Below, in pieces: positions 29,146 to 46,394 of a DNA stretch of 64,000 bases; positions within the stretch are counted from its first letter, which is position 1, and each line of letters opens with the position of its first letter. The DNA is from Acidobacteriota bacterium. GTDB lineage: Bacteria > Acidobacteriota > Thermoanaerobaculia > Multivoradales > Multivoraceae. The notes under the pieces are model-generated. The model was not told where the DNA came from and searched no databases. It saw only the letters and a list, made by a program, of their open reading frames with translations. The stretch covers positions 620,001 to 684,000 of the forward strand of contig JAPPCR010000015.1 of assembly GCA_028875725.1 (NCBI GenBank), in the 5' to 3' direction. The translations under genes and the position numbers were made by a program.

Positions 29146-30285
29146 ATGCCAGGCAGGGCGCCAACCCGTTTCCACACCCTGCTTCTGCCGGCGATCATCG
29201 CGCAGTCGATGATCATCGGCGGCGGCTACGCGACGGGGCGGGAGGTCGTCCAGTACGCCGGCCGCTTCGGCAACTGGGGCTGGCTGTCGGTCGCGATCAT
29301 CGCCGTCTGCTTCTCGCTCGTCATGGCGCTGGCCTTCGAGCTGGCGCGGCTGGCCGGCGCGTACGACTACAAGGCCTGGAGCCGGAACCTGGTCGGGCCG
29401 TTCTGGTGGCTCGTCGACCTCCTCTTCCTCAGCATGATGCTGTTGGTCATCGCGGTCATGACGGCGGCCATCGGCGAAGTCCTCCAGCAGACCCTGGCGT
29501 TTCCGAAGCCGCTCAGCCTGATCCTGGCCCTGGCATGCGTCGGCTTCCTCACCTGGCGCGGGTCCGGCTTCATCGAGCGGGCGAAGACCTGGGGCAGCGC
29601 GGCCCTGTACCTGGGCTACTGCGCGTTCTCGGTCCTCGTGCTGACCGCGCCCGTCGGCGACACTGCCGCGCCGCCACCGCCCGGCTCCGAGGCCGGAGCG
29701 GGAGAGGTCGTCATCACGGCCGTCCTGTACGTCGCCTACAACGTCGCCGTCGTGCCGGCCGTCCTCTTCTGCCTGCACCGCCAGACCCGGCGCAGCGAGA
29801 CCTTCGCGTCCGGGATCCTCTCCGGCCTGGCGATGACGATTCCGTTCGCCCTGACCCTGGCCTGCCTCCTCCGGTTCCCCCATGCCTCCGTGATGGAGGC
29901 GGAGGTGCCCTGGCTGCGACTGATCGGAACCGCGGCCGACGGACGCGCCGGCGGCGCGACCCTCTGGATTGCCCTCTTCGGACTGGTCGCCGGCTGGACG
30001 CTGATCGAGACCGCGGTCGGCTCGATCCACGCGCTGCTCCATCGCGTCGAACGCAACCTGGGCGACCTGCCGCGCCGCTGGAGGCCCGCCTCCGGCGCGC
30101 TCACGCCGAGGCAGAAGGCGCTGACCGCCGTCCTCGTCCTGGCGGCCGCCGCCGGCCTTTCCACCATCGGCATCATCGACCTCGTCGCCAGGGGCTACGG
30201 CACCCTCGCCTGGGGCTTCATCGCCCTGATCGTGCTGCCGCTCTTCGTCGTCGTGCCGTACCGGGCGTTCAAGACATCGGCCTGA
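29146..30285 (+). CDS. YkvI-like membrane protein (APC superfamily, putative transporter)
   Basis: A 379-residue protein with about ten hydrophobic helices. The N-terminal IIGGGYATGREVVQYAGRFG stretch matches the unwound first helix of the APC/LeuT fold found in uncharacterised YkvI-type proteins. No experimental substrate is known to me for this group; amino acid or peptide transport would fit the operon. It begins 23 nt after the serine hydrolase and ends 2 nt before an interspersed repeat element. Confidence 0.75.
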   Translation: MPGRAPTRFHTLLLPAIIAQSMIIGGGYATGREVVQYAGRFGNWGWLSVAIIAVCFSLVMALAFELARLAGAYDYKAWSRNLVGPFWWLVDLLFLSMMLLVIAVMTAAIGEVLQQTLAFPKPLSLILALACVGFLTWRGSGFIERAKTWGSAALYLGYCAFSVLVLTAPVGDTAAPPPPGSEAGAGEVVITAVLYVAYNVAVVPAVLFCLHRQTRRSETFASGILSGLAMTIPFALTLACLLRFPHASVMEAEVPWLRLIGTAADGRAGGATLWIALFGLVAGWTLIETAVGSIHALLHRVERNLGDLPRRWRPASGALTPRQKALTAVLVLAAAAGLSTIGIIDLVARGYGTLAWGFIALIVLPLFVVVPYRAFKTSA

Positions 30286-30287
30286 GC

Positions 30288-30429
30288 CCCACACTGGGTG
30301 CGCCGGCGTGTCATCCGTGCGCCCGATGACGGGCGCACGGACTGTGACGCGCGTGGCGCGGACCGCGCCACACGGGTTCCCGCCGGCATTCGGCGCGTAG
30401 CGCCGGCTTCTGGGCTTCCGCCGCGCCTA
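30288..30429 (+). repeat. Interspersed palindromic repeat, copy A (with 68-bp insertion)
   Basis: The ends and core match the reverse complement of 46321-46394: 21/22 identical at 30288-30309 and 42/50 at 30380-30429. Between them copy A holds 70 nt where copy B has 2. The element fills the gap between two convergent genes, and its right-end CTA (30427-30429) is the stop codon (TAG) of the minus-strand gene. It has several GC-rich stem-forming segments, such as CGGCGC-GTA-GCGCCG at 30391-30405. Confidence 0.75.
30314..30341. repeat. Perfect 12-bp stem, ATGA loop, inside repeat copy A
   Basis: TCCGTGCGCCCG pairs exactly with CGGGCGCACGGA around ATGA. A second perfect hairpin (GTGGCGCGG-A-CCGCGCCAC, 30353-30371) follows 11 nt later. 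Both lie in the insertion specific to copy A, between convergent genes. They may act as transcription barriers, although no T-run follows. Confidence 0.7.
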
Positions 30430-31170
30430 GCGAACGGACTGAACGAACACGCTGGTCGTTCTTTCGAGCCCCTCCCCAAGGGCGGCCATGACCGCCGCGT
30501 AGAACCCCGCGATGCCGAGTCCCTTCCACTTCGACACTCGAGCCACTACCCCGATGCCCAAGCCAAGCAGAATCAACGTCCAAAGGGAGACGGCGATGCT
30601 GGCGGCCCCCTCGAGCAGCGCCCCGACGGTCGTGTGAAGTGCAGGATTGGAGAAATCGAGTTCGAATCCCGAAGACGCCTCGGGTAGCTCAAGCGCCCGA
30701 CGGCCCTTCGACAGCAAGTAGCTGAAGAGGTCGCCCAGGCGACCGACCACGTAGACGTGGACCATCAGCGAGAACAACGTCAGGAAAGGTAGTTTGGCTC
30801 CGAAGACGAGTGACAGCCGCCAGACCAGTAGAGCCTCGATCGGCAGTGCAATCAGTACGGCCGCGGCCATGACCGTGCTGGGTCCGTAGAGGTTCACGGC
30901 CGACTCCCCGCCTCCCATGATGGCAGCCAAATCCCGCTGCCCGAGCACCGTCCTAAGGGCGAGGACCGCCAGGATCACCGCGAGGGCTGCAACCCACGGC
31001 CGGCGCTCGCGGATGATCTCGAAGCTGGTCCGCGGAAACGCGACGATCCCTACCAGAGCTCTCACCCCCGCTAAGCCACCGACCACAGCCCCCGTGTCCG
31101 GAGTGGGCGCTTCGTCTGCCTCGGTCCCGGTCGAGGCATCTGCATTGGTTGGCTTCTGATCCTCGACCAT
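30427..31170 (-). CDS. Yip1-like multi-pass membrane protein, function unknown
   Basis: A 247-residue protein. The first 35 residues are hydrophilic and acidic; five hydrophobic segments follow, with a FPRTSFEIIRERRPW entry that resembles Yip1-domain proteins in bacteria. No catalytic motif is visible. The stop codon TAG is supplied by the edge of the repeat element 30288-30429. Convergent with the YkvI-like gene; 14 nt separate its start from the end of the aldo/keto reductase gene on the same strand. Confidence 0.65.
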   Translation of the reverse strand: MVEDQKPTNADASTGTEADEAPTPDTGAVVGGLAGVRALVGIVAFPRTSFEIIRERRPWVAALAVILAVLALRTVLGQRDLAAIMGGGESAVNLYGPSTVMAAAVLIALPIEALLVWRLSLVFGAKLPFLTLFSLMVHVYVVGRLGDLFSYLLSKGRRALELPEASSGFELDFSNPALHTTVGALLEGAASIAVSLWTLILLGLGIGVVARVSKWKGLGIAGFYAAVMAALGEGLERTTSVFVQSVR

Positions 31171-44580: not shown

Positions 44581-46323
44581 ATGAGGCATGACCCTCTCCG
44601 TCAACCGAACCCACGCCGGCGCCGGACCCTCCTGGGGTATCTGCTCCTCGGCCTGGCGGTCTGCGCCGGTGCCTCGGCTCAGGACGTCGAGCAGTCGGCG
44701 CCAACGGTGGCGGAGCAGGTCGACGCGGTCTTCAGGGCGTGGGACCGGGACGACACGGCCGGTTGCGCCGTCTCCATCACCAGGGCCGGCGAGACCGTCT
44801 ACGCCCGCGGATTCGGCATGGCCCACCTCGAGCAGCCGGCGGCCATCACGCCCGAGACGATCTTCGAGGCCGGCTCCGTCTCCAAGCAGTTCACCGCCGC
44901 CGCCATCGTGCTCCTCGCCCTCGACGGCAAGCTCTCGCTCGATGACCCGGTGCGTGAGTATCTTCCCGAACTGCCGGACTTCGGCGCGCCGGTCACGATC
45001 CGCCACCTGCTGACCCACACCAGCGGGCTCAGGACGTTCCGGCCGCTGGTCGCCCTCCGGGGGCGGCCCGACGGCTTCGCCGCGCATACCAACGCCGAAG
45101 TCCTGGCCCTCATGGCCCGGCAGAGGGATCTCAACTTCCTGCCCGGTGAGGAGTACCTCTACAGCAACGCTCCCTACATCCTGAGCGTGGTGCTCGCCGA
45201 GCGCATTTCCGGGCAGTCGTTCAACGAGTTCACGACCGAGCGGATCTTCGGTCCGCTGGGCATGACGAACACACTCTGGCGGGACGACTTCACGCAGATC
45301 GTCAAGGGTCGCGCCACCGCCTATGGGACCGGCAGGAGCGGCGGGCTCCACAAGAACATGGCGAACACCGAGGTCTTCGGCAACGGCGGCCTGCTGACGA
45401 CGGTGGGCGATCTGCAGCGCTGGAACCAGGAGCTCGACGAGCCGAAGCTCCTCGGCCAGCAGCTCGTCGACATGCTGGAGACTCCCGGACGGTTCAACGA
45501 CGGGACCGAGAGCGACTACGCCCTCGGGCTCGCTATCGGCGAGTACCGTGGCGAACGCGAGATCTCGCACAGCGGCGGCACCGCCGGCTACCGGTCCTGG
45601 CTGGCCCGCTATCCCAACCGCGACCGCCTGTCGCTCGCTCTCCTGTGCAATCACGGCGACATCAATCCGGTCGCGATCGGTCGCCGCGCGATCGACGTCT
45701 TCCTCGGGCCAGACGACGAGGCCGCGGACGCGGAGAGTCCGCAGCCGAGCGTCGAGGTCCCGCTGGAAGACCTGGAACGCTGGGCGGACCCCTACCTCCA
45801 TACCCGTACCGACTCGATCGTCCCGATCACCGTCCGAAACGGCGGGCTCTACTTCGGCGCGGTGAGAACCAGGCCCCTGGGCGAGGACCGGTTCGCGGTC
45901 GGCCTGTCCGGCCTCATCGTCGCGTTCGACGCGGACGAGGACGGCACGAGAACGGCGACCCTGGCGGACGATCCGAAGCGCCGCTACAGGGCGATGCCCG
46001 CGGTGACTCCCACGCCCGAGGAGCTGGCGGAGTACGTCGGCTCCTACACGAGCGACGAACTCGACGTTACCTACTCGGTCGAGTTCCAGGACGGCAAGCT
46101 GCTGTTTCGCCGTCCGCTCGAGAAGCCGCGCACACTCGATCCCCTGTTCAAGGACGCCTTCGAACTGAGCGATCCGTTACTGGAGAGGTTTCCGGCCCGC
46201 GCGCTGTTCAGCACCTTCGTCGCCTGGCCGGCGCGCTTCGAGCGAGATGCCAACGGACGTGTCAGAGCCCTCTACATCAGCGATTCGTCGCGGGTGCGGC
46301 GGCTGCGGTTCGACCGCCGGTAG
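44581..46323 (+). CDS. Secreted serine hydrolase (beta-lactamase family)
   Basis: A 580-residue protein with AGAGGAGA about 9 nt before the ATG at 44581. Signal peptide to about GASAQ (residue 34). Catalytic SVSK, then HTSG, YSN (the YxN motif) and HSGG. The C-terminal 200 residues form a beta-rich extension (EYVGSYTSDELDVTYSV). This resembles serine peptidases/esterases common in soil and marine heterotrophs. The TAG stop codon is the first three bases of repeat copy B. Confidence 0.88.
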   Translation: MRHDPLRQPNPRRRRTLLGYLLLGLAVCAGASAQDVEQSAPTVAEQVDAVFRAWDRDDTAGCAVSITRAGETVYARGFGMAHLEQPAAITPETIFEAGSVSKQFTAAAIVLLALDGKLSLDDPVREYLPELPDFGAPVTIRHLLTHTSGLRTFRPLVALRGRPDGFAAHTNAEVLALMARQRDLNFLPGEEYLYSNAPYILSVVLAERISGQSFNEFTTERIFGPLGMTNTLWRDDFTQIVKGRATAYGTGRSGGLHKNMANTEVFGNGGLLTTVGDLQRWNQELDEPKLLGQQLVDMLETPGRFNDGTESDYALGLAIGEYRGEREISHSGGTAGYRSWLARYPNRDRLSLALLCNHGDINPVAIGRRAIDVFLGPDDEAADAESPQPSVEVPLEDLERWADPYLHTRTDSIVPITVRNGGLYFGAVRTRPLGEDRFAVGLSGLIVAFDADEDGTRTATLADDPKRRYRAMPAVTPTPEELAEYVGSYTSDELDVTYSVEFQDGKLLFRRPLEKPRTLDPLFKDAFELSDPLLERFPARALFSTFVAWPARFERDANGRVRALYISDSSRVRRLRFDRR

Positions 46324-46394
46324 GCGCAGCAGAAGTTCGGAAGCCGGCGCTGCACGCCGGATGCCGGCGGGGACGCCGGCGCACCCAGCGTGGG
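46321..46394 (-). repeat. Interspersed palindromic repeat, copy B
   Basis: A 74-bp element, inverted relative to 30288-30429 and 63/72 identical to it over the aligned parts. It spans almost the whole gap between the convergent serine hydrolase and SDR genes. Its outer TAG (46321-46323) is the hydrolase stop codon, the same element end that supplies the stop in copy A. Contains repeated GCGCCGGC and GCCGGC segments able to fold. Confidence 0.75.

Follow-up and report, generated by a model that had tools for sequence, protein, structure and literature searches.

The sequence analysed here (the window) is a stretch of 64,000 nucleotides from an Acidobacteriota bacterium of the family Multivoraceae (assembly GCA_028875725.1, contig JAPPCR010000015.1, positions 620,001 to 684,000), in which one short repeat occurs in two copies, A on the forward strand and B on the reverse strand. 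An insert of about 69 nt is present in copy A and absent from copy B. We call this insert, which folds into two hairpins, the core, and the repeat around it, which resembles a repetitive extragenic palindrome (REP), the host repeat. Copy A lies between two convergent open reading frames (ORFs), and the features of the locus are listed below, with the core marked by a slash in the notation of filled loops (T/TCC).

29146-30285, + strand: upstream ORF of 379 aa, which ends just before the repeat and has no Pfam match at E <= 0.001
30294-30405, + strand: copy A, the filled host REP-like repeat, defined by alignment to copy B
30294-30301, + strand: conserved head CTGGGTGC of the host REP-like element in copy A, common to copy B and, as CTGGGTGCGC, to most of the transposase loci described below
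30302-30308, + strand: 5' arm of the host REP hairpin, GCCGGCG, which pairs with 30381-30387 and is one of the stem types tallied
30309, + strand: first base (T) of the REP loop and left side of the junction, a T in 80 of 81 copies at an exact REP tip and in 55 of the 63 that lack both tip and head
30310-30377, + strand: core, the nested element with two hairpins, GNCATCC...CGGGT, delimited by the match to model R1 (see below), empty-site comparison and tandem period
30314-30341, + strand: core hairpin 1, a perfect 12-bp stem with loop ATGA, from the fold search and compensatory changes
30353-30371, + strand: core hairpin 2, GTGGCGCG/CGCGCCAC with loop GAC, read from sequence and fold, with compensatory changes
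30378-30380, + strand: remaining REP loop (TCC); T/TCC or T/TCT are the commonest residual loops in REP-borne copies
30381-30387, + strand: 3' arm of the host REP hairpin, CGCCGGC, which pairs with the 5' arm (stem tally)
30391-30405, + strand: second small hairpin of the host REP, CGGCGC-GTA-GCGCCG, read from the sequence in a region common to copy B
30427-31170, - strand: downstream convergent ORF of 247 aa with a Yip1 domain (Pfam)
46318-46394, - strand: copy B, the same REP without core and with loop TCCC, defined by alignment to copy A

Comparison within the window established that A and B are two copies of one repeat, since on the reverse strand 46318-46374 matches copy A at 82% over 57 nt and 46373-46394 matches it at 21 of 22 nt. 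The order in copy B is CTGGGTGC-GCCGGCG-TCCC-CGCCGGC followed by the second small hairpin, and copy A has the same parts with its loop filled by the insert. An earlier inspection of the letters (the sequence-only reading) had described the insert as 70 nt at 30310-30379 where copy B has 2 nt, containing a perfect 12-bp and a perfect 9-bp stem. The extra piece is real in the window alignment, the 12-bp stem (30314-30325/30330-30341) was found again by the hairpin search, and the 9-bp arms (30353-30361/30363-30371) pair as claimed, the search giving longer arms at 30347-30361/30363-30377 (87%). What copy B has in place of the insert is not 2 nt but the 4-nt loop TCCC, and the insert of copy A lies inside that loop. 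As for the limits, the start at 30310 stands, while the comparison of filled and empty sites moves the end to give about 30310-30377, which is 68 nt here. When the 70-nt piece was folded as single-stranded DNA, it reached z = -5.97, and 0 of 200 shuffles were as good.

The core turned out to be a highly repeated element. We searched the own genome with a 160-nt query around copy A and obtained 56 matches at E <= 10, for which 30 loci were returned, and 17 of these 30 loci hold the insert, mostly in other surroundings. The sequence-only reading had asked whether the 70-nt segment is unique and conserved in no other copy; the genome search found many copies. A covariance model (R1) was built from the 17 aligned own-genome copies. 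It gave 33 matches in the own genome at E <= 0.1, 28 of them at E <= 3e-4, and the match ranked after these 28 overlaps accepted copies on the opposite strand. The window core is matched at 30309-30379 with 92.1 bits (E 9.1e-13), the window copy being among the 17 training copies. With stricter filters, we searched 60 genomes (the own genome and 59 relatives), and the core was matched in 21 of 21 genomes of the genus, from 7 to at least 83 times per genome, and in 0 of 39 genomes of the order outside the genus. Under wider scoring genome G019 has 142 core matches and genome G016 at least 150, a few of which are perhaps opposite-strand echoes as in the own genome. Besides, the hairpin-1 pattern was run over a genome collection and found at least 120 stretches, and all of the 80 loci listed carry acidobacterial labels, such as Thermoanaerobaculia, Holophagales, Acidobacteria, Vicinamibacteraceae and Candidatus Multivorans thiocomprendens. 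Such acidobacterial lineages live in sponges.

Generally, the core consists of two different adjacent hairpins over about 69 nt, 5'-GNCATCC...CGGGT-3', and both hairpins are backed by compensatory changes. Two-sided changes occur in 14 of 26 pairs across the 17 copies and in 13 of 26 across a further sample of 93 matches, 84 of them distinct, whose alignment was fitted to model R1 and is hence biased towards the model; both values lie above all 500 shuffles. Of 82 copies, 13 escaped a regular expression written for hairpin 2, 11 of which were recovered as double hairpins by the covariance model, and the remaining 2 end at the locus edge. Where core units stand in tandem, they are spaced 68-69 nt, with a single T between GGG and the next unit. 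At its gathering thresholds, Rfam matched nothing in the window.

Though not GTAG-tagged, the host repeat is REP-like and has a link to a REP-associated tyrosine transposase (RAYT). The own genome (G000) contains one Y1_Tnp match (Pfam, 32.9 bits, above the cut-off of 23), and the gene has on either side one copy of a symmetric repeat, about 140 nt long, which begins with CTGGGTGCGC, the head that copies A and B also have. At this locus (L032:2071-3026), each of the two symmetric repeats that enclose the RAYT gene has ends in inverted orientation. The best NCBIfam match of the RAYT protein is REP_Tyr_transpos with 77.7 bits, below the cut-off of 80, and HVH and Tyr motifs are visible by eye. 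Within the genus, 12 of 21 genomes have Y1_Tnp matches (13 genes), and CTGGGTGCGC repeats stand at 11 of these 13 RAYT loci. The GCCGGCG stem type of copy B is found at RAYT loci L100, L102 and L103, with loop TCCC in L100 and L103 and CCCC in L102. Classical REPs, as PMC2817692 describes them, have a GT(A/G)G head beside the palindrome, whereas the host head is CTGGGTGC.

To describe where cores sit, we sampled 190 model matches from 172 loci, 92 of them mostly the best-scoring loci per genome and 80 found via the hairpin-1 pattern, and 165 of the 190 are unique by core and 25-nt flanks, with orthologous copies counted separately. The flanks are complementary over at least 6 bp in 82 of the 165 unique copies, 81 of them at one offset. 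With shuffled partners, the mean was 36.9 and the highest value in 500 trials 51; the mean is this high because few stem types exist. Random sites gave 5 of 825. When 3 copies with short flanks are dropped, 162 remain, among which 81 sit at an exact REP tip, 18 have a REP head and an imperfect tip (by a head pattern written after viewing the copies) and 63 have neither. Ten of the 92 loci (L093, L106, L107, L122-L124, L129, L130, L132 and L133) came from RAYT, orthologue or composite searches, which favour REP contexts; the exact tip is found in 43 of 88 copies with those ten loci and in 38 of 81 unique copies without them. In the hairpin-1-pattern sample, the least context-biased one, 48 of 90 copies have the exact tip. 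For the own genome the figure is 7 of 26 matched copies (27 of 28 loci searched; one under threshold).

The host stems are of the types GCCGGCG, GCCGGCC, GCGGGTC and, once, GCGGACC, and the 105 unique coreless REPs among the loci examined include counterparts for all four. The residual loop is T/TCT in 10 of 15 filled copies of the GCGGGTC stem, in 14 of 28 of the GCCGGCC stem and in the single GCGGACC copy, and for each of these three stems the usual empty loop, TTCT, is the same. A general need for a hairpin at the non-REP sites was rejected, as a 6-bp stem in the flanks was seen at 0 of 43 sites (mean 2.3 and at most 7 after shuffling). These 43 sites exclude a second larger repeat, found chiefly in G016 and G019, which holds 20 of the 162 sampled copies. 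This dispersed repeat (GCATCCCGCCCGGCATCG ... GCTCCTCGGTCG, L137-L159) has many near-identical core-bearing copies, whose right junction varies in 1-3 bases. Some other cores adjoin a tRNA-Pro(CGG) gene: those of L045, L082 and L203 (L045 and L203 possibly one genome) lie immediately upstream of it, and that of L188 lies just behind its CCA end.

Orthologous sites differ in the presence of the core. The window locus is readable across both flanks in 8 of 21 genomes, and it turned out that G000, G007 and G015 have the core inside the REP, G011 has a coreless REP hairpin with an intact loop, G002, G005 and G006 have partial coreless REPs, and G008 has neither REP nor core. A second locus, outside the REP family (G000 C6:1903390), was examined in 13 loci, of which 10 were readable, while three had a single flank. 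It is filled in G000 and G001 (GGGCGGG-T-core-TC) and empty in G003, G004, G005, G006, G011, G012, G014 and G018, with the empty sites reading GGGT^TCAACG four times, GGCCT^TCAACG three times and GGGT^CCAACG once. This second site lies in another repeat of about 200 nt (L038:1308-1515), which has many matches in the genus. Besides, near-identical cores occur in unrelated flanks: the cores of L086 and L089 are one edit apart and sit in two REP stem types, and those of L069 and L183, with non-REP flanks, each differ by one edit from the core of a GCGGGTC REP; for the nine other of the 11 compared non-REP copies, the closest core in a REP is 3 to 10 edits away. From the filled and empty orthologues together with these near-identical cores, the core seems to move by itself. 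Once a REP holds a core, the two may also be copied on together, and composites of REP and core are found over about 135-140 nt at 91-96% in G006, G011 and G018. The contexts agree on a T^TC junction and an insert of about 69 nt, and most junctions fit T^TC. No target duplication was seen beyond a possible single T, and a 1-nt T duplication is indistinguishable from none.

We therefore consider it likely that the window segment is one copy of a nested, non-autonomous, mobile double-hairpin element of about 69 nt, which is the option of a second smaller mobile element within the first that the sequence-only reading had raised. Many copies outside the repeat, near-identical cores in varied contexts and filled and empty orthologues favour it. 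In the mechanism that we propose, the core would move as hairpin-folded single-stranded DNA, on which a nuclease or transposase, encoded by the cell or by a transposon, would act in trans. It would be joined between T and TC, with a preference for the exposed loop of a REP hairpin, and the insertion would convert the simple REP hairpin into a three-way junction with the REP stem unbroken, so that REPs in intergenic DNA would be a safe harbour for the core. The pair of hairpins, the precise position in the loop and the absence of an evident duplication would fit the single-strand chemistry of IS200/IS605 and REP transposases.

Several observations weigh against this nested mobile element. The two hairpins appear as a fixed pair, in that hairpin 2 follows immediately in 80 of 82 hairpin-1 matches, the remaining 2 being cut off by the locus edge; a gene-bearing version of the core was not found among the hairpin-1 matches listed (n=82), nor was a mobilising gene found. 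The strand bias that single-strand transposition would predict is weak in G019, where the leading strand holds 50 of 78 copies (p 0.017), with 78 of 142 matches used and GC skew taken at 40 sampled stretches. The 9 genomes without a Y1_Tnp match are not poorer in copies than the 12 with one (means 43.7 vs 28.8, from lower-bound counts). At the stem of the window, GCCGGCG, filled loops are T/TCC in 30 of 35 copies and empty loops TCCC in 26 of 43, a departure of one base from the simple rule, and in the 63 of 162 copies without exact tip or REP head the bases past GGG vary.

The same data were weighed under three other explanations. One takes up the other option of the sequence-only reading, in which copy B lost its centre: the core would be the original tip of a long three-way-junction REP, and short REPs such as copy B would be deletion derivatives made by replication slippage between the terminal T bases. 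A deletion between the T bases that flank the core would indeed be precise, the composites are themselves dispersed, and at the site that is filled in G000, G007 and G015, the REP of G011 has an intact hairpin and no core. Nevertheless, 81 of 162 copies lie outside an exact REP tip, 63 of them also without the REP head; at the non-REP site the core is missing from 8 of the 10 readable genomes and present in 2; only one of the 13 RAYT loci (L093), whose REPs would be the presumed source, has a core; and the commonest coreless GCCGGCG loop is TCCC rather than the TTCC expected from deletion. We thus regard deletion as unlikely as the general explanation, although single loci could fit it, with the G011 orthologue possibly a loss and the composites copied as a unit.

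A further explanation holds that the RAYT that moves the host REP also mobilises the core in trans, so that core and REP are two substrates of one enzyme. REP types that hold cores adjoin RAYT genes, the RAYT of the own genome has the near-threshold REP_Tyr_transpos score and the motifs given above, and the E. coli enzyme requires mismatched bases in the REP stem, according to PMC8266576. However, a Y1_Tnp match is confined to 12 of 21 genomes and is absent from G019, which is one contig with 142 core matches, and from G016; only one core lies near the 13 RAYT loci, and that one inside a REP; and the core itself has no REP head. Shared mobilisation by the RAYT is therefore possible but rather doubtful. 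It is much harder to accept, and in our view very improbable, that the core is a terminator or a structured small RNA, duplicated into many copies that were then kept for an RNA function. The strong covariation, the placement between convergent ORFs in the window, the tandem repeats and the four loci beside a tRNA-Pro gene would agree with it, but a DNA hairpin that serves as a substrate should show compensatory changes just as well, and Rfam had no match at gathering thresholds. A mobile repeat fits better with the many unrelated sites, a presence that varies between species at orthologous loci, and 7 to more than 100 copies per genome.

Known types of mobile repeat were also compared with the core. 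A REPIN (an inverted pair of REPs) is not supported, as hairpin 1 resembles the reverse complement of hairpin 2 no better than random in 3 of 3 subfamilies, where 73%, 98% and 78% of random hairpins scored as high, and as the RAYT association of a REPIN is missing, with one core in 13 RAYT loci (inside a REP) and no Y1_Tnp match in 9 of the 21 core-bearing genomes. A miniature inverted-repeat transposable element of a DDE transposon does not fit either: the ends GNCATCC and CGGGT are not inverted copies, and no duplication was seen beyond the possible single T. A miniature element derived from IS200/IS605 would predict subterminal hairpins in common with a gene-bearing parent and a strand bias relative to the replication fork; on these two points the analysis gave the hairpin-1 matches listed, none of them gene-bearing, and the weak bias in G019. 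The IS110 transposase was rejected as mobiliser: it was matched in 8 of 21 genomes only, its ends are unlike the core, and in three G019 loci its left end is at the REP head, not in the loop. This IS110-type element, a REP-targeting IS110, has 6 equal-score copies in G019, of which the three that were read (L280, L288 and L291) begin at the REP head. The REP of L288 carries a core by model match, and that of L291 seems by eye to hold a partial one; core copies in L179, L221 and L224 also abut this end of the element. Elsewhere in the window, direct repeats are found at 15772-15889/23222-23339 (118 nt) and 48833-48907/53579-53653 (75 nt), with 83-84% identity.

The spread of tiny gene-less hairpin repeats is unsettled for REPs, REPINs and mitochondrial GC clusters. 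The core family offers a near base-exact landing site, filled and empty orthologues in 21 related genomes, four host stems, and genomes with and without a candidate enzyme, so that the mechanism lends itself to comparative tests and to simple assays of cutting and joining in vitro. It is also a warning that a second parasite in the loop can alter REP counts and REP structure. More tentatively, and with some doubt on our part, the core might be to bacteria what the double-hairpin elements are to mitochondria: a DNA of two hairpins and no gene that spreads without any Y1 transposase, probably via host replication or repair, and whose T^TC landing pad is the loop of a RAYT-linked REP, which would make a two-level hierarchy of selfish hairpins in one Acidobacteriota genus.

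REPs within palindromes (PMC3733652) and insertion sequences in REP hairpins (PMC1525189) have already been described in print. A report of the present element was not found in the openly accessible literature searched; subscription papers were outside this scope, and absence from print is not claimed. What sets the element apart from the nearest known systems found is the combination of a two-hairpin guest, a near base-exact site in the loops of RAYT-linked REPs with four stem types, and filled and empty orthologues. PMC3733652 describes REPs or their dimers inside other palindromes, namely GTAG-15 of A. variabilis, GTAG-23 of T. roseum and CGTC-1 of H. neapolitanus. There too, short palindromic units lie regularly within a second palindrome, and the target palindrome of T. 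roseum has hundreds of copies. Here, in contrast, the host is a RAYT-linked REP with four stem types, the guest consists of two different hairpins instead of an inverted dimer, and filled and empty orthologues are shown. The REP-targeting insertion sequences ISPsy8, ISRm22, ISPa11 and ISPpu9/10 (PMC1525189) likewise insert at one exact REP base, ISPsy8 and ISRm22 at the symmetry axis, but they bear genes and several have target duplications, whereas the core is gene-less. With the REPIN and RAYT systems (PMC3116915, PMC2817692) the host repeat shares its link to a RAYT; the core differs from REPINs, since its hairpins are not mutual inverted copies, it lies near 1 of 13 RAYT genes, and genomes with no Y1_Tnp match have many copies of it. 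Finally, the mitochondrial GC clusters, double-hairpin elements and repetitive hairpin elements (PMC4478555, PMC2800124) are similar to the core as tiny gene-less palindromes that are mobile by strain comparison, can merge, and have an unsettled mechanism. The likeness is one of description, and, unlike them, the core resides in a bacterial chromosome and has a conserved landing site in a host REP.
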